Position numbers and translations under genes: made by a program | Notes under the pieces: generated by a model | What the model saw: the letters and a program-made list of their open reading frames with translations, nothing else | What the model was told of the DNA's origin: nothing | Databases searched by the model: none | From: a virus | Strand: one strand, 5' to 3' | Length of the DNA: 26,068 nucleotides | IMG/VR virus record: IMGVR_UViG_3300044846_003384 | Span: 1-26,068 of that record | In this document: piece by piece, positions 2,935 to 21,157 of the stretch | Layout of the letters: every line of letters starts with the position of its first letter | Numbering within the stretch: the first letter of the stretch is position 1

Positions 2935-2946
2935 ATTAATAAATAT
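2904..2946 (-). repeat. Promoter-plus-leader cassette, copy 1
   Basis: These 43 bases match 11527-11569 at 37 positions: ATATTTATTAATATGAAAT is identical, and the leader codons then differ at 6 places. Most of the differences keep the residues similar. Confidence 0.75.
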
Positions 2947-4465
2947 GTTTAACTAAGTTTGATGTCGGGATTTCAAATACACCATTAATAACTTGGGTAT
3001 TTGAATTGTCAAATATGTAGGCCCCATCACTATTATTAACAAAAATTAAATAATCCGTTTTATAATTTTTAACACCACCAGTGCCAATCATTTTGTATAC
3101 ACCATTATTATCTTCTATTCTACCAAATGGTTTAATTTGTGCGGTATAAACTTTCCCATCTTTAGTAATCTTACAATCAATACCACTAATTGCATCTTCA
3201 AGATTACCTAAACCACCAATTTTTTCAACATTGTCATCACCAAAAAAAGTTTTAAGTTTTTCAATTGCAAGATCTTCATTTTCTTCACCCTTTTTATTTT
3301 TTTCAGTTAATGCGTTCATAATTTTTTCAAATGTAGAAGATTCGATAGAGAAAATCCTGGATTGGTATTCTTTTATAATCTCCATCATTCTTTGAACTTC
3401 TTCAATTTGTTGTTTAACTGTTTTATTCTTAAAAGAAATTAATTCAACATTTTGTTTAGATAAAACTTTATTAATGTCACCAACTAATATACAAAAGGTA
3501 AAATAATTTGTATTAATTTTATTAATCACAGATCTACCTTGAGTTTCAAAATCATAGATACCTTTCATTTGATTTGGACCATATTCATTTTTTTCATAAT
3601 AGTTATCAGGAAAAACTTCGGCCAAAACTTTATCAATTCCAAATTTAAATACATTTCTAACATATTTGTTAGTATTGAATAATGTTCTGTAAAAACTAAT
3701 TTCCTTCACATCGCAATATTCTTTAGTTGATTCGGCTAAAATTTGTTTAATCGAAGTTTCCTCATTTAATTTTGTTTTTGTTTTTGTTTCTAATAACTCA
3801 TTTACAAATTCCCAATTAACTGATTTCCAAAAGTTTTTTATATATTCATCTCTTTTATTTTGGTATTTTAAATAATAAGCGTGTTCCCAAAGATCCAAAC
3901 CAAGAATAGGAAAACCACCATTTTTAATAACATTCATTAATGGGTTATCTTGATTTGCGGTTGATATAATTTTTAATGTGTTTCTTTTTGTTAAAACTAA
4001 CCATACCCATCCTGAACCAAATCGTTTAGTTGCCACGTATTCAAATTTAGATTTAAATTCTTTTAAACTACCAAATGATTGATTTATTTTTTTTAAAACA
4101 AGTCCATTACATTCTTGTTCTTTTGGTGATAACATTTTCCAAAATAATGCATGGTTAAACGCTCCACCAGCATTATTTCTAATTGTTCGGTTATATTTAC
4201 TAATTCTTTTTATTATATTTTCAAGTTCAACATCACCATAATCTTTTTTGGATAAAGCATCGTTTAATTTTTTAACATAACCTTTGTAATGTTTATTGTA
4301 ATGAACATCCATAGTTTCAGCATCAATAAAATTTTTTAATGCGGAATATGAATAAGGTAGTTTTTCAATACCTATTTTTTTTGCTTCTTCGATTAAAGAT
4401 TTTTTTGCAGATTCCATTAATATGGAATTCTCAATAAGTTGAATTTTATTTTCAATATACTTCAT
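2936..4465 (-). CDS. Mn-type superoxide dismutase fused to PD-(D/E)XK-like nuclease domain
   Basis: This 509-residue fusion carries a complete Fe/Mn superoxide dismutase domain at residues about 35-228: LPYSYSAL, ligand H55 in HYNKHYKGYV, H105 in NNAGGAFNH, GSGWVWLV, and D191/H195 in DLWEHAYY. Gly at 101 plus Q172 in STANQDNPLM is the Mn-type arrangement. A linker of unknown fold follows (229-394). The C-terminal domain (395-509) has E-D-L-A-I-E, G-I-D430-C and T-A-Q443-I-K445-P-F, like the nuclease gene downstream. I chose the ATG at 4465 over the in-frame start at 4540. It follows a TATTTAT element by 7 bases and begins MKYIENKIQL, matching the leader of the other cargo-like enzymes. Possible [LI]-x-E cut sites lie at L-M-E (16-18) and L-A-E (243-245). 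The fold is sure for SOD and moderate for the nuclease. Confidence 0.85.
   Translation of the reverse strand: MKYIENKIQLIENSILMESAKKSLIEEAKKIGIEKLPYSYSALKNFIDAETMDVHYNKHYKGYVKKLNDALSKKDYGDVELENIIKRISKYNRTIRNNAGGAFNHALFWKMLSPKEQECNGLVLKKINQSFGSLKEFKSKFEYVATKRFGSGWVWLVLTKRNTLKIISTANQDNPLMNVIKNGGFPILGLDLWEHAYYLKYQNKRDEYIKNFWKSVNWEFVNELLETKTKTKLNEETSIKQILAESTKEYCDVKEISFYRTLFNTNKYVRNVFKFGIDKVLAEVFPDNYYEKNEYGPNQMKGIYDFETQGRSVINKINTNYFTFCILVGDINKVLSKQNVELISFKNKTVKQQIEEVQRMMEIIKEYQSRIFSIESSTFEKIMNALTEKNKKGEENEDLAIEKLKTFFGDDNVEKIGGLGNLEDAISGIDCKITKDGKVYTAQIKPFGRIEDNNGVYKMIGTGGVKNYKTDYLIFVNNSDGAYIFDNSNTQVINGVFEIPTSNLVKHIY
2939..2945 (-). promoter_or_regulatory. TATTTAT element, nuclease gene
   Basis: TATTTAT then TAAT then ATG: a spacing of only 4 bases. 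It lies within the last codons of the upstream SOD-nuclease gene. Confidence 0.5.
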
Positions 4466-4472
4466 ATTACCT

Positions 4473-4479
4473 ATAAATA
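4473..4479 (-). promoter_or_regulatory. TATTTAT element, SOD-nuclease gene
   Basis: TATTTAT lies 7 bases before the ATG at 4465 and supports that start over the longer frame. Confidence 0.5.
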
Positions 4480-4487
4480 CTGAAATT

Positions 4488-6251
4488 TTATAAAGAATTA
4501 ATTCTTGACATAATTTCTTGGACAACATCTGTTTTATCAATGTTATCTCCCATCACAGTATCTATGATATTTTTCTTATTTGATAATATGTCATATATTG
4601 CACCTTCAATAGTATTTTCAAATATAGGATAATATACTGACACACTATTTTTTTGACCATACCTATAAGCCCTGTCCTCGGCTTGTTGATGATCAGATGG
4701 TACAAATGATAAATCATTCATAATACAAGCTTCACCGGCAGTAAGAGTAATACCAACACCCGCAGCTTTTAAGTTTCCAACAAATACTTTTATTTTATCA
4801 TTCTCTTGGAATTGGTCAACAGCGTGTTGACGATGAGGTTTACTACAAGAACCATCTAAATAAACTGCTTGTTTACCAAAATGATCTTTTATTTTATTTA
4901 AAGTATCAGTAAAGTTAGTGAATATTATTACTTTTTTATCTTGATCAATAATATTCTGAGCAAGTTCTATTGTTGTTTTTATTTTCTCATCGGCAATAAC
5001 TTGTCTAACTTTCATTAATTTTGAAAACTGTATGGTTAACGATGAGGACTCTTCTTTTTTGTTGTTATACCAGTCGTAATACTCCCCTACTAAATTTTCA
5101 TATTCTTTTGATTTTAGTCTCAAATAAACAGGTGTAATGATTTTGTCAGGTAAATCTAATACTTCGGTTTTTAATCTTCTTAAAAATTGTCGTGATGTTC
5201 TTTCTCTTAATTCCTCAAGATTTGATGCACCTTGTACATTCCATACTTTTCTTTTCCCAGCATTAAATTGATATCCTTGACAATATCGGATCGCATACGC
5301 CATCCAATTTTGGGCGACGGGACTTTCAATTAATTGTAATAAATTAAAATAATTCATTGGTCTTGAGGTCATCGGGGTCCCTGTTAATAACCAAAGATAT
5401 TTTGAGTTTTTAGCAAAATTATTAACTAATTTCGTTCTTTGGGCTTGACCGTTTTGAATATAATGGGCTTCATCAATTATTATCAAATCAAAATTACCTT
5501 TAATAATTAATGATTCTTCTTTTAGATCGTGGAAGTTTTTTAGAATGTCATAATTAACTATCACAAAATCATGGTCAAGTGAAAAGTTTTTACCTTCAGC
5601 AATATACACACTTCTATCAGTGTAGTTTTTAATTTCACGTTCCCAATTTATTTTAAGTGATGCAGGACAAATAATTAAAATTTTTTTAATCCCTGTCTCT
5701 AAAGCTGCTATGATGGTTGATGTTGTCTTACCAAGACCCATATCATCGGCCAATATAAATCTTTTAGTACCTACTAATTTCTCAATTGCTTCTTTTTGAT
5801 GTGAAAGTGGTGGTCTATGATCGTATTTTGAATAATCAATATTAACCACTTCGGTTTTGTGAGTTTTAATAATCGCCGATTTTGGTAACCATATATCTGA
5901 CAAAGTATTACCCGAAAAAAATTTACCCCAAATATGGTATGACTTATCCTTTTCGACTAAAAGTTTCTCAATCCATATTTGTTCAGGTATTGATGTGAAT
6001 AATTTTTCATCGGCAAATTTCTTAGCAAAATAAGGATCTAAGTCAACCCATTTTTTTGCAACTTTTGGGGTTGTATTTGAGTAGTTAACAATATACTCAC
6101 ATTGTGATCTGGTTGGTACAAAATTTTTATTACTTATTGATTTTTCTTTAAGATAGATTAAATAATTATTCGCACCTTCATATGTCTCCAATATATCAAG
6201 GGCTTTTTTCTCAATGACTTCAAATGTCTTTTTTAAATCGGTATTTTCCAA
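4488..6251 (-). CDS. SNF2-family (SMARCAL1-like) DNA helicase/translocase
   Basis: This superfamily 2 ATPase probably remodels forks or recombination intermediates during phage replication. With the start at 6251 it has 587 residues: an N-terminal domain (1-140), Walker A ADDMGLGKT (168-176), CPASLKINW (195-203), Walker B DEAH (260-263), LTGTP (289-293), then the C-terminal RecA-like half with VGNLKAAGVGITLTAG (491-506) and the arginine-finger motif QAEDRAYRYGQ (523-533). All the catalytic motifs look intact. There is no ATG before Walker A. The open frame reaches 6299, but that extension is a hydrophobic run translated from AT-rich promoter-like DNA. A TTG at 6251 sits 15 bases after TATTTAT, the same spacing as the neck gene. 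In T4 this role belongs to UvsW, which is a different SF2 branch. Confidence 0.88.
   Translation of the reverse strand: MENTDLKKTFEVIEKKALDILETYEGANNYLIYLKEKSISNKNFVPTRSQCEYIVNYSNTTPKVAKKWVDLDPYFAKKFADEKLFTSIPEQIWIEKLLVEKDKSYHIWGKFFSGNTLSDIWLPKSAIIKTHKTEVVNIDYSKYDHRPPLSHQKEAIEKLVGTKRFILADDMGLGKTTSTIIAALETGIKKILIICPASLKINWEREIKNYTDRSVYIAEGKNFSLDHDFVIVNYDILKNFHDLKEESLIIKGNFDLIIIDEAHYIQNGQAQRTKLVNNFAKNSKYLWLLTGTPMTSRPMNYFNLLQLIESPVAQNWMAYAIRYCQGYQFNAGKRKVWNVQGASNLEELRERTSRQFLRRLKTEVLDLPDKIITPVYLRLKSKEYENLVGEYYDWYNNKKEESSSLTIQFSKLMKVRQVIADEKIKTTIELAQNIIDQDKKVIIFTNFTDTLNKIKDHFGKQAVYLDGSCSKPHRQHAVDQFQENDKIKVFVGNLKAAGVGITLTAGEACIMNDLSFVPSDHQQAEDRAYRYGQKNSVSVYYPIFENTIEGAIYDILSNKKNIIDTVMGDNIDKTDVVQEIMSRINSL
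4493..4506. promoter_or_regulatory. 14-base perfect palindrome before SOD-nuclease promoter
   Basis: AAGAATTAATTCTT lies in the last helicase codons, 13 bases upstream of the TATTTAT of the SOD-nuclease gene. Its core AGAATTAATTCT differs by one base from the palindrome upstream of the RHH gene, so it could be a second RHH site. Confidence 0.3.
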
Positions 6252-6266
6252 AACAATACTAAATAT

Positions 6267-6273
6267 ATAAATA
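6267..6273 (-). promoter_or_regulatory. TATTTAT element, helicase gene
   Basis: TATTTAT lies 15 bases before a TTG at 6251, which supports TTG as the helicase start. Confidence 0.45.
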
Positions 6274-6289
6274 ATAATAACTATTAAGA

Positions 6290-6296
6290 TATTTAT
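6290..6296 (+). promoter_or_regulatory. TATTTAT element, gp14-like gene
   Basis: GATATTTATCAATATG: spacing of 4 bases to the start. With the element at 6267 it forms a compact divergent promoter region. Confidence 0.5.
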
Positions 6297-6300
6297 CAAT

Positions 6301-8142: not shown

Positions 8143-11100
8143 ATGGCTACAAACAGTAAAGTATTCGTTTCACCAGGGGTTTACACCTCTGAAGTTGATT
8201 TGAGTTTTGTGGCTCAGAGTGTCGGTGTTACTACGTTAGGTATCGTAGGAGAAACATTAAAAGGTCCGGCCTTTGAACCCATATTCATCACGAATTTTGA
8301 TGAGTTTTCCACTTTTTTTGGTGGGACTTCCCCTGAAAAATTTGTTAACACTCAAATACCTAAATACGAGGCGGCGTATATCGCAAAATCTTACTTACAA
8401 CAATCTAACCAATTGTTTGTAACAAGAGTTTTGGGATTATCAGGTTATGATGCAGGACCATCTTGGTCTTTCACAACTAAAGCAAATGTTGATAAAGAAA
8501 CCGTAGGGTTTTTCTGTGAATCAGGAATTACGGTTGATTGTGAATTTCAGTGTGTTGATTATAAAACAATTAACTATACTATCGACTTCTCAGGATGTAA
8601 CAATTCTACAACATCAATAACTTACACAGATTTATCTGGATGTCCTGATGAATTATTGGATAAACTATATCTACCTTATGAAAATTTTGATGGTAGTGTA
8701 TCATCACTTGACGCTGATATTAAAGATCAAATCTTTACAATTTTAAACACACCATCAGCGGCAACTACTAATATTAATTATTATGGTACAATTCCTACAT
8801 CAGAATATGATATGTTATCTACAGTTTTCACAAATGAAAACAATGTGTTTAATGTTGAAGATGTAAGTTCTGAATTGGCTGATTATACATCACCGTTAAA
8901 TGACGCTTGGTATTACGCATTATTTGACAATGTTGGTAGTGGAGTTTATTCAGGGTATTCAATGTTCTCATTTGTATATGACTTACAATTAATACCTGTA
9001 GTTACAACTACAACTGCCGCTCCAACTACAACTACAACAACTACAGATCCTTGTGTTACACCTCTACCAACAACTACAACAACTACAACAACTGCGAAAC
9101 CAGTTAATTGTTACACAGGTAGTTTAATGGGAACAATTTATGTTTATTCAGGTACTGCATATCTTAATTATGATGATTTAGTTATCGCAACTATGAGATC
9201 AAGAGGTTTGGCTACTTATGGTAGTGATAATGGAGCTGCATACGAAGTAACAGGTCTTACAGATGTTAACATAGTTTGTACTAATGGTTATTCAGCCGTT
9301 ACTAAAAACCCATTTGCAACATTTGGAATGAATATTACTAAAAATGATGGTGAAACATTATTCTTTGAAACTTCGTTCTCAAATTCTGACAGTAAATACC
9401 TTACTAAAGTATTTGGTCAATCTAACTTTGGTAAAGATAGAAATTCAGTTCCACTATTTGTTGAGGAAAATTATCCAAACTTATTAGTGTGGGCTTATCG
9501 TAAAGGTTATATTCGTGGACTAAGTTGTGATTTAATTTCATTACCTGAAGCAAGACAAGGGGTTGATCCTACATCAATTGCTTGGTACTTAGAAAAATAT
9601 CAGTCACCTGAATCTCCTTGGGTTGTATCTGAATTGAGAGGTTCTAAAGTTTATAGATTATTCAAGTTCACAACAATTGCGGATGGAGACGCTGCGAATA
9701 CTGAAGTTAAAATTTCAATCGCAAACATTTCATTTAATAATGGAACATTTGATGTGTTAGTTAGAGATTTCTTCGATACTGATAACAATCCAATTGTTAT
9801 TGAAAAATTCACTAACTGTAATATGAATCCTAATGATAATGGATATATAGCTAAAAAAATCGGAACGTCTGATGGTGAATATCAACTAAACTCTAAATAT
9901 GTTATGGTTGAAGTTAACGAAAACGCACCAATAGATGCATTGGCTTGTGGTTTTGAAGGATTTAAAATGAGAGAATACGCTGGGGCTCGTTCACCATTCC
10001 CGATTATTAAATCTAAATACGATTTCCCTGGTGAAGTTGTATTTGACCCACCATTTGGTTTATCATCAGGAGCTAATGATGCTACAATATCTTCAGGTGA
10101 TAATGTTAGAAGAACTTATTTAGGTATTTCAGATACGGTAGGTATTGATCCTTCTTTCTACTACTATAAAGGTAAACAATTACCAACTAGTATTTGTGAT
10201 TCAGTATCGGCACCTGAATGGTCTTACAAAACAAAAGGATTCCACATGGATATAAATGCTTCGGCAATTACAATTCCTAACACATTTGTTACAAGTGGTA
10301 CTCCTGAGTTTGTTTGTGGATCGGCAGAATTTACATCAGACCCTGATAACGAACAAAACCCATACTACAGATTATTCGCAAGAAAATTCTCTTTCTTAGT
10401 ACAAGGTGGATTTGACGGATGGGATATTTACAGAGAATACAGAACTAATGGTGACAGATACCAATTAGGTAGAACAGGATATTTAAAAGGTGCATGTCCT
10501 TCTATAAAATACCCGACAGCTACAGGATGGGGAGCGTTTAAACAAATAACAGTTGGTGATGGTACTCAAAATTACGCTAACACCGATTATTACGCTTATC
10601 TATTGGGTATTGGAACATTCTCAAATCCTGAAGCGGTTAATATTAATGTATTTGTAACACCTGGTATTGATTATGTAAACAACTCTGATTTAGTTGGTTC
10701 GGCAATCGAAATGATTGAATTTGAAAGAGCGGATTCAGTTTATATCACAACAACACCTGACTACAACATGTTTGTTCCGTCTCTTGGTGATGCGACTGAT
10801 TTAATCTTCCCTCAAGAAGCTGTTGATAATCTTGAAACAGCAGGAATTGATTCTAACTATACTGCAACTTACTACCCTTGGATTTTGGTTAGAGATACAG
10901 TTAATAATACACAAATTTATTTACCACCAACAGGTGAGGTAACTAAAAACTTGGCATTAACTGATAACATAGCGTTCCCTTGGTTCGCGGCAGCAGGTTA
11001 CACAAGAGGTATCGTTAGTTCAGTTAAAGCACGTAAGAAGTTGACTCAAGAAGATAGAGATACTCTTTATAAAGGAAGAATCAACCCAATTGCAACTTTC

Positions 11101-11472
11101 TCTGATGTTGGTACGGTAATTTGGGGTAATAAAACTCTTCAAATTAAAGAATCTGCACTTGACAGAATTAACGTGAGAAGATTGTTGTTACAAGCTCGTA
11201 AGTTGATTTCAGCAGTTTCTGTAAGATTGTTGTTCGAACAAAATGATCAGAAAGTAAGACAAGATTTCTTAAACGCTGTTAATCCTATCTTGGACGGAAT
11301 TAGAAGAGATAGAGGTCTTTATGACTTCCGAGTAACAGTTTCTTCAGACGCGGCTGATTTAGATAGAAACCAAATGACAGGTAAAATCTACATCAAACCA
11401 ACTAAGTCACTTGAATTCATTGACATTACATTCTACATCACTCCAACAGGAGCGTCGTTTGAGGATGTTTAA
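8143..11472 (+). CDS. gp18: Contractile tail sheath protein with large insertions
   Basis: This protein forms the contractile sheath around the tail tube. The N-terminus has the sheath signature SPGVYTSEVD, then GIVGETLKGPAFEPI and a helix AAYIAKSYLQQSNQLFVTRV. The C-terminal 170 residues carry the interlocking domain: GRINPIATF, G-T-V-I-W-G, RRLLLQARKLI, then the final strands IYIKPTKSLEFIDITFYITP. At 1109 residues it is far longer than T4 gp18 (659). The excess sits in the middle. It includes a Cys-bearing segment (five Cys starting at C125), a Thr/Pro low-complexity linker (residues about 288-320) and a further beta-rich block. These probably form domains on the outside of the sheath. A long A-rich leader (42 bases after TATTTAT) and a strong terminator make it its own transcription unit. 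Confidence 0.93.
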   Translation: MATNSKVFVSPGVYTSEVDLSFVAQSVGVTTLGIVGETLKGPAFEPIFITNFDEFSTFFGGTSPEKFVNTQIPKYEAAYIAKSYLQQSNQLFVTRVLGLSGYDAGPSWSFTTKANVDKETVGFFCESGITVDCEFQCVDYKTINYTIDFSGCNNSTTSITYTDLSGCPDELLDKLYLPYENFDGSVSSLDADIKDQIFTILNTPSAATTNINYYGTIPTSEYDMLSTVFTNENNVFNVEDVSSELADYTSPLNDAWYYALFDNVGSGVYSGYSMFSFVYDLQLIPVVTTTTAAPTTTTTTTDPCVTPLPTTTTTTTTAKPVNCYTGSLMGTIYVYSGTAYLNYDDLVIATMRSRGLATYGSDNGAAYEVTGLTDVNIVCTNGYSAVTKNPFATFGMNITKNDGETLFFETSFSNSDSKYLTKVFGQSNFGKDRNSVPLFVEENYPNLLVWAYRKGYIRGLSCDLISLPEARQGVDPTSIAWYLEKYQSPESPWVVSELRGSKVYRLFKFTTIADGDAANTEVKISIANISFNNGTFDVLVRDFFDTDNNPIVIEKFTNCNMNPNDNGYIAKKIGTSDGEYQLNSKYVMVEVNENAPIDALACGFEGFKMREYAGARSPFPIIKSKYDFPGEVVFDPPFGLSSGANDATISSGDNVRRTYLGISDTVGIDPSFYYYKGKQLPTSICDSVSAPEWSYKTKGFHMDINASAITIPNTFVTSGTPEFVCGSAEFTSDPDNEQNPYYRLFARKFSFLVQGGFDGWDIYREYRTNGDRYQLGRTGYLKGACPSIKYPTATGWGAFKQITVGDGTQNYANTDYYAYLLGIGTFSNPEAVNINVFVTPGIDYVNNSDLVGSAIEMIEFERADSVYITTTPDYNMFVPSLGDATDLIFPQEAVDNLETAGIDSNYTATYYPWILVRDTVNNTQIYLPPTGEVTKNLALTDNIAFPWFAAAGYTRGIVSSVKARKKLTQEDRDTLYKGRINPIATFSDVGTVIWGNKTLQIKESALDRINVRRLLLQARKLISAVSVRLLFEQNDQKVRQDFLNAVNPILDGIRRDRGLYDFRVTVSSDAADLDRNQMTGKIYIKPTKSLEFIDITFYITPTGASFEDV
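9004..9102 (+). repeat. ACA/ACT threonine-codon tract in sheath gene
   Basis: A run of alternating ACA and ACT codons, broken by GCC GCT CCA and by a short Cys-containing segment, encodes two Thr clusters with Pro caps. The low-complexity DNA could expand or contract by slippage in 3-base units without shifting the frame. The protein segment looks like a flexible linker between surface domains. Confidence 0.8.
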
Positions 11473-12567: not shown

Positions 12568-13056
12568 ATGGCGGATTTATTAATGAAAATGCCAATACCT
12601 TACGAACCTAAAAGACAAAATAGGTTTATAATGAGATTTCCATCTACGTTGGGTATCAATGAATGGTTTGTTGAAACATCGTCGAGACCACATATAACAA
12701 TCGGTACTACTGAGATTCAATTCTTAAATACTTCAACGTATGTTGCAGGTCGATTTACTTGGGGTACAATTAATGTTAAGTTCCGTGACCCTATTGGACC
12801 GTCAGCTTCTCAGGCATTAATGGAGTGGGTTCGTCTATGTGCTGAATCTGTAACAGGACGTATGGGTTATGCCGCTGGTTATAAGAAAAATGTTGATTTG
12901 GAAATGTTAGACCCAACAGGTGTTGTTGTTGAGAAATGGATATTAGAAGGCGCTTGGTTAAGTGATGTGAACTTTGATAGTTTAGCTTATAACTCAGACG
13001 CGATAGCTTCAATTACAGCGACACTTAGACCAGATCGTTGTATATTGGTTTACTAA
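12568..13056 (+). CDS. gp19: Tail tube protein
   Basis: This 162-residue protein is almost exactly the length of T4 gp19 (163). It polymerises into the inner tube through which DNA passes. Residues include YEPKRQNRFIMRFP at the start (the usual P-x(3)-N-R-F opening of T4 tube proteins), IGTTEIQFLNTSTYVAGR, a W-G-T-I-N-V-K-F strand with R-D-P-I-G, a helix A-L-M-E-W-V-R, and WILEGAWLSDVNFDSL near the end. It has its own TATTTAT element 33 bases upstream, an A-rich leader and a strong terminator behind it, as expected for an abundant product needing its own dosage. Confidence 0.9.
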   Translation: MADLLMKMPIPYEPKRQNRFIMRFPSTLGINEWFVETSSRPHITIGTTEIQFLNTSTYVAGRFTWGTINVKFRDPIGPSASQALMEWVRLCAESVTGRMGYAAGYKKNVDLEMLDPTGVVVEKWILEGAWLSDVNFDSLAYNSDAIASITATLRPDRCILVY

Positions 13057-13170: not shown

Positions 13171-13929
13171 ATGGAACAAAATTTAATAGATGCTGGTCAA
13201 CAAAATTTTACATTACCTCATGATGTGGTAACTTTACCTAGCAAAGGAGTTTTTTATAAAAATAAAAAAAGTTCAGTTAAAGTTGGTTATCTAAATGCTA
13301 GTGATGAAAATATTTTAGTAAGTGGTAGTCAGTTAGGTAGAGAAAACATTATCATGACTTTATTACGTAATAAAGTTTATGAACCTGATTTAAAACCTGA
13401 AGAGTTGGTTGAAGGTGATATTGAAGCTATTCTATTATTCCTTAGAAACACATCATTTGGTCCCGAATATTCAGTTAATTTAATTGATCCTAAAACTGAT
13501 AAAATATTTAATCACATTGAAATAATTGATGAGATGATGTATAAAAAAGTTGATTCTCAACCTGATAGTGATGGTTTATTTAGTGCTAAATTACCTAGAA
13601 CGGGGGTGACGGTTAAACTTAAACCATTAACTATGGGTGATACTATGGAATTAGATAGAATGGAGAGTCAATATCCCGCAGGATTGGTAATACCAAAAAT
13701 TACGTGGAGACTTAATAAAATGATACAATCAATTGATGGTAATTCTGATAGAGGTGTAATATCCCAATTTGTAGAAACAATGCCAATTTTAGACTCAAAA
13801 TTTGTTAGAGAGTTTATTAAAAAAAATAATCCAGGTTTAGAATTAACAAGATATGCAATAGCCCCGTCAGGAGAAAGAGTTACATTTGATGTGACTTTTG
13901 GGGTTGAATTTTTTCGCCCTTTCTTCTGA
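13171..13929 (+). CDS. Baseplate/tail assembly protein, T4 gp26-like
   Basis: This 252-residue protein has the pattern of T4 gp26-type baseplate proteins: LPSKGVFY near residue 23, a E-N-I-L segment, G-D-I-E-A-I-L-L-F-L-R and F-G-P-E-Y (about residues 90-110), then a C-terminal strand pair ending V-T-F-G-V-E-F-F-R-P-F-F. In T4-like phages this gene is followed by a small helical partner, and here that partner lies in the +1 frame and appears to be joined by ribosomal frameshifting near the end. The protein is thought to act in hub or wedge assembly rather than as an enzyme. The start has an A-rich upstream. A TATTTAT lies 75 bases before it, inside the terminator hairpin of the tube gene. Confidence 0.65.
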   Translation: MEQNLIDAGQQNFTLPHDVVTLPSKGVFYKNKKSSVKVGYLNASDENILVSGSQLGRENIIMTLLRNKVYEPDLKPEELVEGDIEAILLFLRNTSFGPEYSVNLIDPKTDKIFNHIEIIDEMMYKKVDSQPDSDGLFSAKLPRTGVTVKLKPLTMGDTMELDRMESQYPAGLVIPKITWRLNKMIQSIDGNSDRGVISQFVETMPILDSKFVREFIKKNNPGLELTRYAIAPSGERVTFDVTFGVEFFRPFF

Positions 13930-14071
13930 GTATGGTAAATATTTAATTGATGAATACTATGTGTTGGCTAAAATACTTAGAATGAGCTATAGTGATTTTA
14001 TGGTTATACCGACATATAAAAGAAAATATTTAATAAATAGAATTATAAAAGACAATACCCCGGAAAAATAA
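13895..14071 (+). CDS. +1-frame extension of the gp26-like protein (probable frameshift product)
   Basis: This frame is open from just after a TGA at 13892-13894 to a TAA at 14069-14071. It overlaps the end of the gp26-like gene and has no ATG until 13982, which would leave only 29 codons. Translated from the shift point it gives about 51 residues: SSEYGKYLIDEYYVLAKIL, then MSYSDFMVIPTYKRKYLI and NRIIKD. The 'YxD-x-x-x-I-P-x-x-x-R-K-Y-L' pattern resembles the small helical protein that follows gp26 in other T4-like phages (my recollection of gp51-type or chaperone sequences). The fused product would be 299 residues. TTG starts at 13898 or 13904 are possible alternatives. The stop codon lies inside the terminator hairpin, so the gene ends right there. 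Confidence 0.65.
   Translation, partial: LLGLNFFALSSEYGKYLIDEYYVLAKILRMSYSDFMVIPTYKRKYLINRIIKDNTPEK
13909..13916 (+). other. Candidate +1 ribosomal frameshift site TTT TTT CGC
   Basis: In frame the ribosome reads GAA TTT TTT CGC. If tRNA-Phe in the P site slips from TTT (13912-13914) to TTC (13913-13915), reading resumes at GCC and enters the downstream frame. The sequence is close to the +1 site UCC UUU CGU that produces influenza PA-X. A -2 slip would reach the same frame. Confidence 0.55.
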
Positions 14072-14107: not shown

Positions 14108-16063
14108 ATGGATGATGAAGATAGTATATTTGACAGTTTAAAAAACAAGGTTAATGATGTTGTTAAAGAAATTGGTGCTGCGTTTGAAAGTAACATAAAT
14201 CCTGGTAGGATAGGTGAAACTATGGTTGCGTTAGAAAATAATGCGACAGTACTTATTACTAAATTTAATCAAGGACGGGAAAATATTCAAGCGATGAAGG
14301 AGGTTCTTGCTGATTCAGTACATAGTGTTATTGAGTTGGGGGGATCAATGGAAGATGTGTTACAAATACAAGAAAGTATGACCGATGTTTTAGGTAGGAA
14401 TACTTTGTTAATGTCCGATTCATTTAAAGATTTATACGCCGCGTCAAAAGCTTCAGGTGTTGGTGCTGATACAATTGCATCTTCATTTAAAGATGTCGGT
14501 ATATCAGTTTATGATTCATCTAAACAAGTTGAAATGGTTTTAAACACCGCCAGAGAAATCGGGGTTAATGCTAAAGAAGTAACTAGTCAAGTATTGGATA
14601 ATACCGACATGTTAAATAAATACACATTCCAAGGAGGTGTGGAAGGGTTAGCTAAAATGGCAGCTCAAGCAACAAATTTAAGAATTAATGTTTCAGACAT
14701 GGCTACCACATTAGATAAAGCGTTTGATCCTGAAAGTGCGATTGAAATGGCTGCGGCTATGCAAAGATTAGGGGTTACCCAATCTGATTTATTAGATCCC
14801 CTTAGATTGATGGATTTGGCTCAGAATGATCCTGCGGAATTACAAAATCAAATTGCTGAGATGTCAAAACAATTTGTTCAGCTAAATGAAAAAGGTCAAT
14901 TTGAGATTATGCCGGGGGCTAAAAGACAATTAATTGAGATTGAAAAATCTTTAGGTATGGGTTCGGGTACTTTAAGTAAAATGGCGTTGGCAAGTGCGGA
15001 GTTGGGTGATAAAATGAGTAAAATCAAATTTCCTGAAGGTGCTTTCAGTGAAGAACAAAAAACTTTAATTGCCAATATGGCAGAAATGAAAGAAGGTGAA
15101 TATAGAATAACATTGGGTGGTGAAGAATTGGGTATTGATGAAGCGATAGATAGACTTAAAGGTGATGACCAAAAAATGAAAGATTTACTTGAAGCGTCAA
15201 AACCAAAAACTCTTGAAGAATTAACTAAAGACCAATTAGGTGTTATGGGAGCGTTAAATCAAAGTGTTAAAGCTTTGGCGGATAGAATTCCATATGCAAT
15301 TGCTAGCCAAAAAGGTGGAACTGATATGTTCACTAAAGTAGGTAAAGGAGGTCAAGCAATTATGAGTTCATTTGATACTACTTCAACAAGTGTTAAAAAT
15401 TTAAGAGGTCAGTTTGATCAATTTGGTGACGGACTTGGTAAATTACTTAAAGGTGAAAGTAGTTTAGAAGAATTTGGTAAAAGTGTAAAAAAATTAGGCG
15501 ATTTTATGAATGACACATTTATTGAGGTTGCAAAAAATGTTGATAAAAACGTTGAAGGTGCGACTGGGTTAAAGATATATGAAACAGTTCAAAAAATAGA
15601 TAACACATTATCAAATGCTAAAGATGCGAATGATTTTATTATATCTGAAGAAGGGGTTTTAAAAACCGCACCTCAAGATACTATAATTGGTATGACCCAA
15701 GGTGATAAATTAATGGGAATGTTAGAAAAAATGCAAACAATTAATCCTCTTGAGTCAACAAAACCAATCACGGATATGGGAAAAATGCAAACAACGACCC
15801 CTGTCGATATCTCAAACGATTTAGGACTTAACATTCAAGACTTTATAAAAAACATGCCAACGGTAACTACTACAAATGAAAACAATAACACTAATAAAAA
15901 TGAAATGACAATGAATTTAAATGTTAGTGGTTTACCTAGTGGGGTAAATACTGAAGAAGTTATTAAAGTTATTAAAGAAACTTTAGGTAAAACTGAATTT
16001 ATGAGAGAATTTAATAAAATGAATAAAGATACTCAGACAAATGATAATATGACAGTATCTTAA
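14108..16063 (+). CDS. Tail tape measure protein
   Basis: This 651-residue, largely helical protein probably sets tail length and sits inside the tube. It has long amphipathic helices rich in Ala, Met, Lys and Glu, with Gln/Asn-rich turns, from residue 1 to about 520. A low-complexity Thr/Asn segment comes next (about 585-605), then a short C-terminal domain with I-K-V-I-K-E-T-L. No enzymatic motif and no clear membrane segment is visible. It is close in size to T4 gp29 (590 residues), and at the usual 1.5 angstrom per residue it would set a tail of roughly 100 nm. Its place between the gp26-like gene and the baseplate genes fits. It starts 14 bases after TATTTAT. Confidence 0.7.
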   Translation: MDDEDSIFDSLKNKVNDVVKEIGAAFESNINPGRIGETMVALENNATVLITKFNQGRENIQAMKEVLADSVHSVIELGGSMEDVLQIQESMTDVLGRNTLLMSDSFKDLYAASKASGVGADTIASSFKDVGISVYDSSKQVEMVLNTAREIGVNAKEVTSQVLDNTDMLNKYTFQGGVEGLAKMAAQATNLRINVSDMATTLDKAFDPESAIEMAAAMQRLGVTQSDLLDPLRLMDLAQNDPAELQNQIAEMSKQFVQLNEKGQFEIMPGAKRQLIEIEKSLGMGSGTLSKMALASAELGDKMSKIKFPEGAFSEEQKTLIANMAEMKEGEYRITLGGEELGIDEAIDRLKGDDQKMKDLLEASKPKTLEELTKDQLGVMGALNQSVKALADRIPYAIASQKGGTDMFTKVGKGGQAIMSSFDTTSTSVKNLRGQFDQFGDGLGKLLKGESSLEEFGKSVKKLGDFMNDTFIEVAKNVDKNVEGATGLKIYETVQKIDNTLSNAKDANDFIISEEGVLKTAPQDTIIGMTQGDKLMGMLEKMQTINPLESTKPITDMGKMQTTTPVDISNDLGLNIQDFIKNMPTVTTTNENNNTNKNEMTMNLNVSGLPSGVNTEEVIKVIKETLGKTEFMREFNKMNKDTQTNDNMTVS

Positions 16064-16102: not shown

Positions 16103-19100
16103 ATGCCTGATAGTCCATTATCGTTTGCGTCTAGTTCATCTTTTAGAGATGCTTTAATGGTTAAAAATTTACCACCATATAGTGTTGAAGGAGAGTTTAG
16201 CCCTCCATCAGGACCAATTAATTACGAAACGGTTTTAGGTAATTCAAACGTTATTGATTCCCCAAATAATTTAAATGAGACATATCCTAATCAATTATAC
16301 CCATTAAATGAGTATGGACCTGATGGTGGATATAATCTAACAATAGATTTTAATGGACCGCCATTACCTGTAACTCCTAATCAAGGACCATATGAACCAC
16401 TTGAAAGTCAAGTATTACAATTGGGAGGGTTTTATATACAAAATCCGTATATTATTAACATTTATTCACCTGAAGGTGGTTATGATTATGTGTACGATGT
16501 AACAGATATTCAAGTTACAGGACAAATTCATTTACCATATTTTAATAGTTTTGTTTCTTCAAGTTATTCGCCATATTCAATTTTAATTAGTAATAACCCA
16601 ACAGGATCTGATGGTTCATTATCTCAAGATTCTTATATCGCAAAATTAGGTGCAAGTCAGTTACAATTTTTATTTCAAGAACGAATTAATACTGAAATTG
16701 CACAATCAACTGTAGGTGCGGTTAATTTACAATCATTACAAGATCCATTTGAAGCAGCTTTATTAGTTACAGGACAACAACCTTTAATATATAGAAATTG
16801 GAAAATTACGGTTCCTGAAAACGCTATAGTTGCGGCCGTTGATTTTGCGACAAGAATTGCAGGGGCTTATTGGCCTGTATCATTTATACCTGGTGATTAC
16901 TTTACCGAAAATGAATATGGTAATTTAGCGACTAATCAAACCTCAAACGCTTTAAGTACGGTAAACCAATTAACGGGAGGATTATTAGGTCCGATTTTAA
17001 ATTTAAAAAGGAACCCATCTCAGATATTTTTGGCAAACACTGGAAATGGTCAGAGATCGGCATTGTTTTTAAATTTACATTATAATAGATATAGTCCTGA
17101 TTATAATAATGAATTTGGTGGAGGTTTAGGTGTTATACAAGGTTTAGTTAATGCGGTATCAAACTTAATTAATCCTAATGGTACTATAAATGGTGGTTAT
17201 TATGTTGGTAGTTCTAATGCGGAACCATCACAAATTACTAGTCCTGTAAATCAAATACCAATAAATCAATATGGTGAACAAAATCCATCGCCAGTATATG
17301 GGCCGTCAGAATTAGGTCAGTTATATGAAGGTAATATTGAAGGTATTAAATTTGGATTAGCGGGTAAATCATCAACTGACGGGGGTGGTATTGATGGTCA
17401 ATTTGTTTGGGTTTCCCCAAAATATAAAGATAACGCAGGATTTAAAGCAACACCTGGTGGTGGTCCTGGCAGTGCTGATGATGAATTTAATATTATTAGT
17501 TCACAATATAAAAGTAATGAATCAACAAATCTTGATTTAAAAAAAGGATCAATTTTAGACAACACTCAAAAATTAGTTGATTCAGGTGATTTAGTTACAG
17601 GTGCTAACAGGTTAAAACACGTTGGTAACGCAATTAATCAAGTTTCTAAAGTTTTTAATGACGGGTATAAAGAAATGACAAAAGGATCTCAAGTTGTTTC
17701 TTATAAAGATAATACAACAGGGGCAGAAGCCGGAATTGAGTATTGTAGAGTTTTCACAAAAGATACACCATATTACACATTTGCTGATTTACAAAAAACA
17801 GATGGTATTACAACATCAGGTAGAAGATTTACAAATTCAGTTTTAGATAATACATACAATTTAAACATAGCTCCATTAAAAAATCCTGGGTCGACTAATA
17901 TCGTTAAGAATGAGAAAGGTGATTTTTACGCTAAAAAATATATGTTCTCTATTGAGAATTTGGCTTGGAGAACATCAAGTAGACCAGGGTTTACTTATGA
18001 TGAATTACCTGATTGTGAAAAAGGACCTAACGGTGGTAGAGTGATGTGGTTCCCACCATATAACTTATCTTTCAATGACTCAAGTACCGCAAACTGGAAC
18101 CCAACAACATTTTTAGGTAGACCTGAACCCATATATACTTATAAAGACACAACTAGAAGTGGATCATTGAGTTGGACCATTATTGTTGATAGTCCATCAG
18201 TGTTAAATGTTATAGTTAATGAACAACTGAAAAATGTTGATGACGAAAGAATTAACTCAATTTTAGAATCATTTTTTGCGGGTTGTGTGAAATTTGATAT
18301 ATATGAATTGGCTAAAAAATATAATAAAATACCTTTTACCGAATTACAACAAATTCAAGAAACATTAAACAACCCAAAATTAACTGCTGAAGAATTAGCA
18401 CAATTAAAAAATCAAATTCCTGCAGATAACACTAAAACAGATGGTGAACAAGGTAATAATGAGGGTAGTGGGAGCCAAACAAAAACAACAAATGATACGA
18501 CCGCAGATGACTTTAAAAATAAATTTAAGGAATTTGCATTTTATTTTGATAATGATATACCTGGACCCCCTAAAACAGGTACTAATACCACTTCAGTAAA
18601 TTATGATACAACATATTCGGCTTATATTGCTAAAAAAAGTCAATACGCTGAAAAATCTAAAACCGCATTTTTACCTGGTAGTATTGAAACAAATACTGAT
18701 GGTTTCTTTACTACTGTTATAGAATCTAACTATCAAGAAATTGCTGGTGAAAAAGATGGTTTTATTGTAAAAGCAATTGAATTACTTGAAAAAGGTTATG
18801 GACCTATTAAAGTAACATTAGAAGGATCGGCATCTGCGGTTGCTAGTAATGAATATAACAAATCATTATCTCAAAGAAGGATTGATTCTGTTAGAAATTT
18901 CTTTAAAACTAAAACCATTGGTGGTAAAAGTTTAGGGACTTATATGAAAGGTAACCCTGATGATAAATTTATTATTGAGTCGGCTAAAGGATTTGGTGAA
19001 GATGTTGTTATACCTAAAACATCAACAGCTACAGATGCAACAGGAGGGGATTCACCAACAGGTAGTACTGAATCAGGAACTGCTAATGATGTTAATTGTC

Positions 19101-21157
19101 GGGACTTACAAAAATCACAAGTTCAAGGAGTTCCGAATAGTGTTGCTCAAATTTATTCAACAAGTGCAATGGCTTGTAGACGTGTGGCGATTAAAACTAT
19201 TGACGTTAAATCACCACCACCTGTTAATGACGTGACTCCTGAAGAACCTAATGTTGTTGAAAATCCTAATGGTGTACTTAACCCACCATTGAGACCATTA
19301 CCAACCACTTCGGTAACAACCAAGTTAAAAGAAGGTTTAAGTAAAAAAGTTTTAAGAGCGTTATTATCTGAATGTGATTATTTTGAAATGATCAAGGAAA
19401 ATGAACCAATGGTTTATAAAACTTTTAAAGATAAAATAAAACATTTTAATCCCGCGTTCCATTCAATGACACCTGAAGGACTAAATGCAAGATTAACGTT
19501 TTTAAATCAATGTGTAAGACCTGGTGAAACAATACCAACTATCGATGCTGATGGTAGACCAAAATACAATGACGCAATAAACACATCATTTGGTGCTCCA
19601 CCTGTATTAATTTTAAGAATAGGTGATTTTTATAATACTAAAATAATTCCAGGATCATTATCATTTCAATATGAACCGTTACAATTTGATCTTAATCCTG
19701 AAGGTATTGGAGTTCAACCAATGTTGGTTAAGGTTTCCTTACAGTTTAATATAATAGGGGGGATGGGACTTGCAAAACCTGTGGAACAGTTGCAAAACGC
19801 ATTATCATTTAACTATTACGCAAATACTGAAATATATGATGAAAGAGCGGTTTGGACTGAAGATACGTCAGCATTAGATAAAGAAGTATTTGATGCAATT
19901 AAATCATCTCAAGATATTCCACCACCTAAAATTACCAATCAACAATCAAATGAAGGTGGTAAGTCTATTGGTGATATAAAAACAACTATACTTGGTAATC
20001 CTTCTGGTGAAACAGGTGAATTAGTTTATCAACAAGTTATGGATTCTTTATTGGAAACGGCTAAAACATATTTTGTATCAACGACTAGTCAATTAGAAAA
20101 AATTGTTAGACAACAAAACAATGGTGTACTACAATTAATTAACAATTATGATACTAATAGACAATATACTAAAGGTAAAATAGGGTCAATTAACGGAGAA
20201 ATTTATGGTAAACCTCAATACGAAAAAGTTATTAATTATATTTTTGATAAATGTATAAGTAAATTTGAACCTAATGGTCAAGACATATTTTATCAAAGAT
20301 TAACTGAAAATGGATATCCTGATAGTGGAGAAAACTCGGCTAACTTAACAATACTAAAGCAAAATATAAAACAGTATCTTGAAAATTTAAAACCGACTTT
20401 TTCAAGTGATGTCGCTGTTATTATTAACGATCTTGTTAGTGCTGAAAATGAATTAATATATGCGGTCTCAAGATTAAACGTTGTATATAATCAGTTTGAT
20501 GGTAAATTTTTAGGTAGTAAAATTTTTCTATATCAAACAAGTGGATCGACTAAAGCTGGAGACGCAGTTACCCCAGGTTTTAACGATACTTACCTTGAAT
20601 TTAAAAATGATTATGACAAATTACCAAAGGCGTTGAATGATTATATTGTGTTACTTAAAGAACAAAGTATAATAACTGTCAATGCTACGGATATCAATAC
20701 ATTTGAATTTAGTAAAATAACTGAATATAATACAGATGAAGCGTACAAAACATTCTTTTTAGTTATGTCAAGAATTTTTAATGATCCCGTTAAATTTCAA
20801 GAGTTTAGGACATTTGTGTTGACCACTAATATAATAAGTTCTAGTACAGGGGATAAATTAGTTAAAAAATTCGATAAAATTTGTGATGATTTAAAGAATG
20901 ATTATAAAAAAGAATTAGATAAAGAACAGGAAAACTTTACAAAATTTAAAAATACATCAGATTATAAGAAATATGATAATAAGATTACAGAAACTTTGTA
21001 CACTAAAGGTAAACCAAGGAAATTTGATTATACGACTAGTGTTGACCCAACTAAAAAGACTGAATGGGAAAACACAATTAAAAATATTTATGGTACAGTG
21101 AATTATGGTGATAAAGCTAATGATGTATCAACCTTTGAAGGAAAAATTAATATATAA
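16103..21157 (+). CDS. Giant baseplate protein with OmpA-like domain
   Basis: This encodes 1684 residues. The N-terminal 250 are Pro/Tyr/Asn-rich. Residues about 611-703 form a beta domain (ENLAWRTSSRPG, GGRVMWFPPY, PIYTYKDTTRSGSLSW). Residues about 880-1033 resemble an OmpA-type peptidoglycan-binding domain: VTLEGSAS, YNKSLSQRRIDSVRNFF, and the closing CRRVAIKT. A disordered Thr/Ser/Gly stretch interrupts the domain. The usual Asp after the Gly in this motif appears to be Ser, so cell-wall binding is uncertain. Residues about 1168-1249 hold a second tube-like beta domain (GSLSFQYEPLQFDLNPEG, then LQNALSFNYYANT), which recalls tube-cap or hub adaptor proteins. The last third is helical. The stop overlaps the next start (TAATG). 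A baseplate hub or tube-cap role is likely. Confidence 0.6.
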   Translation: MPDSPLSFASSSSFRDALMVKNLPPYSVEGEFSPPSGPINYETVLGNSNVIDSPNNLNETYPNQLYPLNEYGPDGGYNLTIDFNGPPLPVTPNQGPYEPLESQVLQLGGFYIQNPYIINIYSPEGGYDYVYDVTDIQVTGQIHLPYFNSFVSSSYSPYSILISNNPTGSDGSLSQDSYIAKLGASQLQFLFQERINTEIAQSTVGAVNLQSLQDPFEAALLVTGQQPLIYRNWKITVPENAIVAAVDFATRIAGAYWPVSFIPGDYFTENEYGNLATNQTSNALSTVNQLTGGLLGPILNLKRNPSQIFLANTGNGQRSALFLNLHYNRYSPDYNNEFGGGLGVIQGLVNAVSNLINPNGTINGGYYVGSSNAEPSQITSPVNQIPINQYGEQNPSPVYGPSELGQLYEGNIEGIKFGLAGKSSTDGGGIDGQFVWVSPKYKDNAGFKATPGGGPGSADDEFNIISSQYKSNESTNLDLKKGSILDNTQKLVDSGDLVTGANRLKHVGNAINQVSKVFNDGYKEMTKGSQVVSYKDNTTGAEAGIEYCRVFTKDTPYYTFADLQKTDGITTSGRRFTNSVLDNTYNLNIAPLKNPGSTNIVKNEKGDFYAKKYMFSIENLAWRTSSRPGFTYDELPDCEKGPNGGRVMWFPPYNLSFNDSSTANWNPTTFLGRPEPIYTYKDTTRSGSLSWTIIVDSPSVLNVIVNEQLKNVDDERINSILESFFAGCVKFDIYELAKKYNKIPFTELQQIQETLNNPKLTAEELAQLKNQIPADNTKTDGEQGNNEGSGSQTKTTNDTTADDFKNKFKEFAFYFDNDIPGPPKTGTNTTSVNYDTTYSAYIAKKSQYAEKSKTAFLPGSIETNTDGFFTTVIESNYQEIAGEKDGFIVKAIELLEKGYGPIKVTLEGSASAVASNEYNKSLSQRRIDSVRNFFKTKTIGGKSLGTYMKGNPDDKFIIESAKGFGEDVVIPKTSTATDATGGDSPTGSTESGTANDVNCRDLQKSQVQGVPNSVAQIYSTSAMACRRVAIKTIDVKSPPPVNDVTPEEPNVVENPNGVLNPPLRPLPTTSVTTKLKEGLSKKVLRALLSECDYFEMIKENEPMVYKTFKDKIKHFNPAFHSMTPEGLNARLTFLNQCVRPGETIPTIDADGRPKYNDAINTSFGAPPVLILRIGDFYNTKIIPGSLSFQYEPLQFDLNPEGIGVQPMLVKVSLQFNIIGGMGLAKPVEQLQNALSFNYYANTEIYDERAVWTEDTSALDKEVFDAIKSSQDIPPPKITNQQSNEGGKSIGDIKTTILGNPSGETGELVYQQVMDSLLETAKTYFVSTTSQLEKIVRQQNNGVLQLINNYDTNRQYTKGKIGSINGEIYGKPQYEKVINYIFDKCISKFEPNGQDIFYQRLTENGYPDSGENSANLTILKQNIKQYLENLKPTFSSDVAVIINDLVSAENELIYAVSRLNVVYNQFDGKFLGSKIFLYQTSGSTKAGDAVTPGFNDTYLEFKNDYDKLPKALNDYIVLLKEQSIITVNATDINTFEFSKITEYNTDEAYKTFFLVMSRIFNDPVKFQEFRTFVLTTNIISSSTGDKLVKKFDKICDDLKNDYKKELDKEQENFTKFKNTSDYKKYDNKITETLYTKGKPRKFDYTTSVDPTKKTEWENTIKNIYGTVNYGDKANDVSTFEGKINI

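Follow-up and report, generated by a model that had tools for sequence, protein, structure and literature searches.

Sequence evidence for a probable +1 frameshift at a UUU_CGN site, with a covarying upstream stem-loop, in gp26-type tail assembly chaperone genes

Frameshifts in tail chaperone genes are classic. In the lambda G/GT system, two overlapping frames between the tube and tape-measure genes give a short and, through a -1 shift, a long isoform. In some T4-like phages, the short and the long form each have a gene of their own (PMC10885494, citing Vladimirov et al. 2022), and poly-T -1 signals are also described in T4-like phages (PMC12846349, citing Vladimirov et al. 2022). An unannotated -1 shift at GTTTTT was found by comparison in the tail assembly chaperone (TAC) of Pakpunavirus (Adele) (PMC12846349). 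Shifts in the +1 direction have been proposed for the tail chaperones of archaeal viruses, at a TTT-CGC site in the HF1-group haloviruses (PMC7230728) and in the tail assembly chaperone of HSTV-2 (PMC5009743). In the influenza PA-X site, UCC_UUU_CGU, the UUU_C sequence with a CGN codon in the A site is consistent with tRNA-Phe slipping to UUC in the P site (Firth et al., PMC3498833), a shift which takes place on the eukaryotic ribosome with low efficiency and without an evident stimulator (PMC5009743). The bacterial prfB (RF2) gene uses a CUU_U slip (PMC10885494) at a stop codon. Its internal Shine-Dalgarno duplex, located beside the E site, promotes the +1 movement.

The stretch of DNA analysed here at its full length, referred to as the window, is a 26 kb (26,068 nucleotides) virus fragment from IMG/VR with a G+C content of 30.3%. 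ORF1 (13171..13929, + strand) encodes a gp26-like protein of 252 aa, the putative short chaperone isoform (TAC-N). Its end is overlapped by an open +1 frame at 13895-14071, which consists of 58 codons and a stop codon at 14069-14071; the part from 13913 to 14071 (+ strand, stop included) is designated ORF2 and would supply the long isoform (TAC-NC) with its C-terminal domain. This designation is based on the open, protein-like +1 frame, on a three-helix structural model and on an HMM match to the C-terminus of a continuous gene in the relatives L047/L049. Across the overlap, frame 0 reads GAA TTT TTT CGC CCT TTC TTC TGA, and the +1 frame from the overlap onward reads FFALSSEYGKYLIDEYYVLAKILRMSYSDFMVIPTYKRKYLINRIIKDNTPEK. 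A first-pass annotation, made from the sequence alone, had described a +1 frame without a good start overlapping the end of a gp26-like gene, and both frames exist as it described. Its proposals of a +1 reading, of a UUU_CGN site and of a gp26-like protein were supported, whereas its interpretation of the second frame as a hidden small gene had to be corrected, and the covarying stem-loop described below was not foreseen by it.

The gene preceding the chaperone (12568..13056, + strand) encodes a gp19-like tail tube protein (phrog_4542 tail tube, 1e-29; Pfam Phage_T4_gp19, E 4.6e-6, under its cut-off), which resembles the tube proteins of Flavobacterium, Rhodothermus and Microcystis phages. The gene following it (14108..16063, + strand, 651 aa) occupies the tape-measure position, and this position is the only basis for its naming: it had no Pfam match above cut-off and no tblastn match among phages, and the gene at the matching place in LIS04 and immuto is an annotated tape measure. 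Inspection of 13 window genes by eye revealed no clear Shine-Dalgarno sites, three genes being preceded merely by short stretches of purines. This and the resemblance of the tube protein make a host from the Bacteroidota likely, but it is not shown. No tRNA genes were found in the window.

Several other genes of the window deserve mention in their own right. A 534-aa frame on the minus strand (2936-4540) carries an Fe/Mn superoxide dismutase at residues 58-248 (Sod_Fe_C 1.6e-39, Sod_Fe_N 9.7e-23), while the roughly 285 residues after it match nothing in Pfam and form an unknown C-terminal part. A SNF2-type helicase (4488-6299, 3.8e-30) lies on the same minus strand, as do the neighbours of the superoxide dismutase gene. 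The tail sheath protein (8143-11472, + strand) comprises 1109 aa, with the sheath domains confined to residues 811-1100 and threonine-rich runs within the long N-terminal part. A 1684-aa protein of the tail region (16103-21157, + strand) contains a weak OmpA-like stretch at residues 889-953 (E 0.00025, under cut-off).

Compared with the described systems, the locus shares with lambda G/GT its place between the tube gene and the tape-measure position, the two overlapping frames and the predicted short and long isoforms, and it also meets the G/GT-type criterion of an overlapping second frame which lacks its own start and is conserved in relatives. It differs in the direction of the shift (+1 instead of -1), in the protein family and in the presence of a conserved upstream stem-loop. 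The T4 proteins gp26 and gp51 belong to the same family (PF12322/phrog_150) and likewise constitute a short and a long form, but T4 encodes them in two separate genes, whereas the window would use one gene with a +1 shift. The HF1 group and HSTV-2 are similar in the proposed +1 shift and different in being archaeal viruses, for which no upstream hairpin is mentioned in the relevant sections of the cited papers. With PA-X, the locus would have in common the UUU_C P-site slip and CGN in the A site, and with prfB the +1 P-site slip and a stimulator just upstream; it would, however, rely on a sense codon and a hairpin in place of prfB's stop codon and its Shine-Dalgarno sequence. The chaperone of Adele was also a case of an unannotated frameshift recognised by comparison, in that case of the -1 type.

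The profile match shows that ORF1 is a member of the gp26/gp51-type chaperone family, while the chaperone function itself is inferred. ORF1 matched phrog_150 with an E-value of 2e-6 over positions 12-232 of the 282 in the profile, on which T4 gp26 spans 14-235 and T4 gp51 13-280. The match to PF12322 (0.0011, 19.2 bits) remained under the cut-off of 24.5 bits, which was passed by the relatives L016 (28.6 bits) and L026 (30.5 bits). The AlphaFold models of ORF1 (pLDDT 87.7) and of ORF2 (pLDDT 92.6, three helices) were produced separately. Among 990 aligned PDB chains, the two best for the ORF1 model were YqbN (3klu; Z 5.5, rmsd 3.3, 81 aligned) and the HK97 tail assembly chaperone (2ob9; Z 5.4, rmsd 3.9, 92 aligned), both being modest similarities with Z <8, and among its best viral structural matches are T4-like hub assembly proteins and the baseplate hub subunit of SP-15. 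For ORF2 taken by itself, only weak matches were obtained against Pfam and PHROGs, and none by tblastn against phages. The fold search gave no BFVD match with E <0.001, several of the 45 weak matches being named tail assembly chaperone, and of PDB chains only one was aligned, none reaching Z 2. An hhalign comparison with the C-terminus of T4 gp51 was in register but not significant (probability 0.35% and 2.7%), hmmsearch with the ORF2 profile reported no domain in T4 gp51, and no profile comparison with T4 gp51, gp26 or gp28 was significant. Joining ORF2 to ORF1 increased the phrog_150 score of the relative L025 from 47.8 to 53.8 bits, with the match extending to position 252, and slightly that of the window (28.5 to 29.9 bits); no gain was observed for L016 (44.8 to 44.5) or immuto (36.3 to 35.2).

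The slip site TTT TTT CGC (13909..13917, + strand), with the second TTT (13912-13914) proposed to occupy the P site and CGC the A site, was compared in related phages, as the first-pass annotation had suggested. In the first scan, the search peptides excluded the junction, so that the 48 loci obtained were not biased towards the site, and in 43 of them the +1 frame runs into the same small domain; of the remaining five, two end short of the junction (L012 and L046) and L047-L049 have another architecture. The arrangement is not due to chance: an IMG/VR contig identical to the window over ORF1 (L002) has an identical junction. From the second scan, 80 of 581 confirmed relatives were kept, and these are biased towards the junction because one of the two peptide patterns includes FFRP. 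Both scans together with the window gave 126 rows, 124 of them usable after skipping L012 and L046 (ORF1 cut), with 88 distinct junctions. The motif TT[T/C] TTT CGN with an open +1 frame was present in all 88 distinct junctions of the window's clade. It begins with TTT TTT in 83 and with TTC TTT in 5, and in the latter the second TTT is therefore the only good +1 slip codon. The A-site codon was CGG in 43, CGC in 28, CGT in 11 and CGA in 6 cases, whereas elsewhere in ORF1 (768 arginine codons) AGA/AGG account for 85%, CGG for 0.3% and CGC for none. The conservation of CGN may be partly explained by dual coding, because its third base sets the +1 residue (Gly, Ala, Val or Asp), and dual coding of both proteins is a possible partial explanation for the conserved CCT and TTC of the overlap as well. 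In 85 of the 88 junctions, frame 0 terminates four codons beyond CGN, and in L111, L132/L133 and L134 it does so two codons later; since the placement of this stop varies, it is not part of the shift site.

Conserved coding in the +1 frame is also shown. For protein work, L042, L068 and L126 (ORF2 cut) were left out, which gave 85 joined proteins; 48 of these have a single in-frame TTTC word, and 21 were used for alignment A4. After removal of near-duplicates, 57 of the 85 sequences entered the frame-constraint analysis. Frame 0 is protein-constrained up to the site, where all 1050 of 1050 pairwise codon differences at CGN are synonymous and none nonsynonymous, and the +1 frame is not conserved before the site and protein-like after it.

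A further line of evidence comes from relatives with 33% identity to ORF1 (L047/L049), in which a short gp26-like gene is followed directly by a second gene of this type, continuous and about 310 aa long. The ORF2 profile aligns from its first residue with the C-terminus of the second gene (i-E 7.2e-6 and 3.7e-6, in a small search of chosen sequences), and IFALDPSY or IFSLDPSY is found where the window has FFALSSEY. The domain is thus shown to be fused in one frame in a relative, and for this reason ORF2 is regarded as the C-terminal domain of a long isoform and not as a gene of its own. The pair of a short copy and a continuous long copy resembles the two-gene arrangement of T4. The first-pass annotation had named two observations that would refute its reading, namely a clear separate start codon in relatives, or a continuous frame indicating a sequencing indel. 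The continuous frame was met only as a second, paralogous gene, with no indel at the junction, and a separate start only in one distant phage (L050), in another shifted frame. In this 595 kb phage (LR756511.1, 3322-3474), an ATG that overlaps the stop of ORF1 begins the ORF2 domain, which is read in the -1/+2 frame. Because this frame stays open upstream of the ATG as well, the domain might there also be reached by a -1 shift.

The region upstream of the slip site contains a stem-loop, the covariation of which is shown and the role of which is inferred. Counting from the first base of the slip codon as 0, it extends 8-51 nt upstream of that codon, and the alignment from -54 to +19 is gap-free in 75 distinct sequences, which means a fixed spacing to the slip site. 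In helix 1, GCCCC (-51..-47; 13861..13865, + strand) pairs with GGGG(U/C) (-12..-8; GGGGT at 13900..13904, + strand) in 100% of cells of the 75 sequences; only L118 changes the middle pair, with both sides altered, to A-U. The GGG codon of the 3' arm is present in 87/88 junctions, compared with 12% of glycine codons elsewhere in ORF1. Helix 2 is formed by -37..-30 (13875..13882, + strand) and -20..-13 (13892..13899, + strand); 73.8% of its cells are paired, all 8 pairs form in the window as read from the sequence, and 44 both-side changes were counted against 11.3 in shuffles (0/500). Between the 5' arms lies an unpaired, conserved TCAGGAG (13867..13873, + strand), whose GGA codon at -42 is kept in 87/88. 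For both helices together, 83.9% of cells were paired against 79.1% in shuffles, both-side changes numbered 45 against 11.4 and the covariation score was 0.187 against 0.102 (0/500 each), although these shuffles do not correct fully for the relatedness of the sequences. Shuffles keeping the amino acid of the 3' codon gave the same indication for the third-codon pairs -34/-16 (65 vs 47.9 of 75, 0/5000) and -31/-19 (49 vs 34.9 of 75, 0/5000). Moreover, the four most constrained synonymous codons among the 80 ORF1 columns tested, GCC at -51, CCT at +6, GGA at -42 and GGG at -12, all belong to the final 22 codons, and all but one precede the overlap.

RNAalifold by itself predicted helix 1 alone, longer by one pair, and Rfam gave no family at the gathering level, with one chance match to SNORD69 (E 0.66). 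A pseudoknot between AGGAGAAA (-43..-36) and CUUUCUUCU (+7..+15) was rejected, as it showed no covariation and shuffles equalled the observed pairing in 380/500; no covariation was seen between TCAGGAG and the downstream pyrimidine run either. An internal Shine-Dalgarno role of AGGAG or GGGG is not favoured, because the 13 inspected window genes lack clear Shine-Dalgarno sites.

The +1 arrangement is not limited to the window's clade but extends, at related slip sites, to two more distant groups. In the group of immuto, Microcystis phages and LR756508 (A9), 80 loci were collected, of which 76 remained after excluding two cut and two duplicate ones. ORF2 is open in +1 in 76/76, in 67 of them in +1 alone and in 9 with the third frame also open. 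The site is TTT YTT followed by TGG (70), TAC (4) or TTC (2), with an invariant YTT T core, and no comparable upstream hairpin was seen in this group. The SP-15 group (A10) comprises 35 loci, 32 of which were analysed, the partial matches L262-L264 being left out; after setting aside 3 cut and 5 duplicate loci, ORF2 lies in +1 in 24/24 distinct loci (both frames being open in one). Sites counted by eye were TTT CGN in 14, TTT CAN in 2, TTT TGG in 1 and none of these in 7. Four SP-15-like loci with a +1 ORF2 and no TTT CGN (L249, L252, L254 and L258) have the overlap AAT CCC AGT, read by eye, where the slip perhaps occurs on CCC_A. Cultured phages with the +1 arrangement are SP-15, LIS04, GXN1, QdP_Psa3, immuto and Mel-JY01; they include phages of Bacillus, Listeria, Streptococcus, Pseudomonas, Flavobacterium and Microcystis. 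In RM378 (L140), no gp26-like gene was recognised in the three frames read after the tube gene, and a scan of genome contigs gave one distant match, in a Deltaproteobacteria MAG (L138).

It is very likely, in the absence of protein or ribosome data, that ORF1 and ORF2 form one recoded tail assembly chaperone gene with a +1 shift at UUU_CGN. The occurrence of the shift, its efficiency, the P-site assignment and the making of both products are inferred. In this model, most ribosomes would terminate at 13927 and release the short isoform, and some would slip one base forward at UUU_CGN and produce a long isoform of 299 aa, extended by a three-helix domain. With the A site holding a rare CGN codon, the peptidyl-tRNA-Phe would shift its pairing from UUU to UUC. 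The stem-loop, whose end is separated from the slip codon by 7 nt, would probably push the ribosome forward by refolding behind it; a refolding upstream hairpin is reported to stimulate a +1 shift in yeast and on 70S ribosomes (Huang et al., PMC6321510). That the stem-loop substitutes for the Shine-Dalgarno duplex of prfB is an inference which remains no more than possible. By analogy with lambda G/GT, the two isoforms would cover the tape measure protein and bring in the tube protein. In immuto, the expected +1 product would contain a peptide through ...IPIGVSFFGLTPEYR.

Among the alternative explanations, the one that survives best accepts the frameshift and denies the hairpin the role of stimulator, attributing it to mRNA stability, other control or codon constraints. 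This may be the case, given that A9 and A10 keep the +1 arrangement, A9 without a comparable hairpin, and that the lower helix (helix 1) would sit within the ribosome at the moment of slipping, which counts against the hairpin as a stimulator. Against this explanation stand the fixed spacing to the slip site and the clustering of the four most constrained synonymous codons towards the end of ORF1, three of these before the overlap.

Separate production of ORF2, with ribosomes either starting internally at the TTG at 13898 or re-initiating past the ORF1 stop, is very unlikely. In its favour, a +1 TTG occurs upstream of the conserved core in 85/88 loci, in most of them as a mere consequence of the TTT GGG sequence, and L050 has its ATG-started ORF2 beside the ORF1 stop. 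In the window, TTGs, the first at 13898, are the only start-like codons in the +1 frame before the core. However, the open +1 frame of L109 and L122 reaches back just 5 nt before the slip codon and contains no ATG, GTG, TTG, CTG, ATA, ATC or ATT up to the core, and so no usable start. The first downstream +1 ATG usually lies 52-94 nt beyond the site, and a start there would lose the conserved FxLSS part. The lack of conservation of the +1 frame upstream of the site, the absence of clear Shine-Dalgarno sites before window genes and the fused form in L047/L049 also argue against separate synthesis.

A -2 slip, as in phage Mu (PMC3498833), would reach the same frame and add one Phe, and the T-run permits re-pairing of the P-site tRNA two bases back in 83/88 loci; it is nevertheless improbable to a similar degree, as the TTC TTT sites (5/88) and the CTT variants of A9 (19/76) pair poorly after -2 and well after +1. 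Slippage of RNA polymerase on the T-run, which would give two mRNAs without ribosomal recoding, could be suspected from the six T's in most loci but is made extremely unlikely by the TTC TTT loci, which have just three consecutive T's before CGN and retain the +1 arrangement.

The preferred reading, a +1 ribosomal shift, is not without precedent. The earlier statement that such a site was not known to be described in a gp26/gp51 pair held in part: the +1 TTT-CGN site has been proposed in the HF1-group haloviruses, for a chaperone without a PF12322 match (none was found in the first CDS of HF2). No description of the site together with the hairpin in gp26-type genes was recognised in the literature searched, and Vladimirov et al. 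2022 may partly cover the +1 shift. A bolder reading is that the locus represents a natural +1 shift of the bacterial ribosome driven by a conserved upstream stem-loop instead of a Shine-Dalgarno duplex, in hosts seemingly without Shine-Dalgarno use, and that in the gp26-type superfamily +1 recoding at several types of slip site is the rule, the two-gene layout of T4 being an alternative. Both parts taken jointly could as easily prove wrong as right.

Summarizing, the chaperone is cut in two, or its second half missed, in the annotated genomes of SP-15, LIS04, immuto and Mel-JY01, and the putative long isoform is therefore unannotated there. The group also represents a large natural data set for bacterial +1 frameshifting in contractile-tailed phages, with one slip site accompanied by an upstream hairpin, another (YUU_U) for which no hairpin was found, and relatives in which a second gene replaces the shift. 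These contrasts make the role of the ratio of short to long isoform in contractile-tail assembly, as well as the idea of a hairpin pushing the ribosome forward, directly testable.
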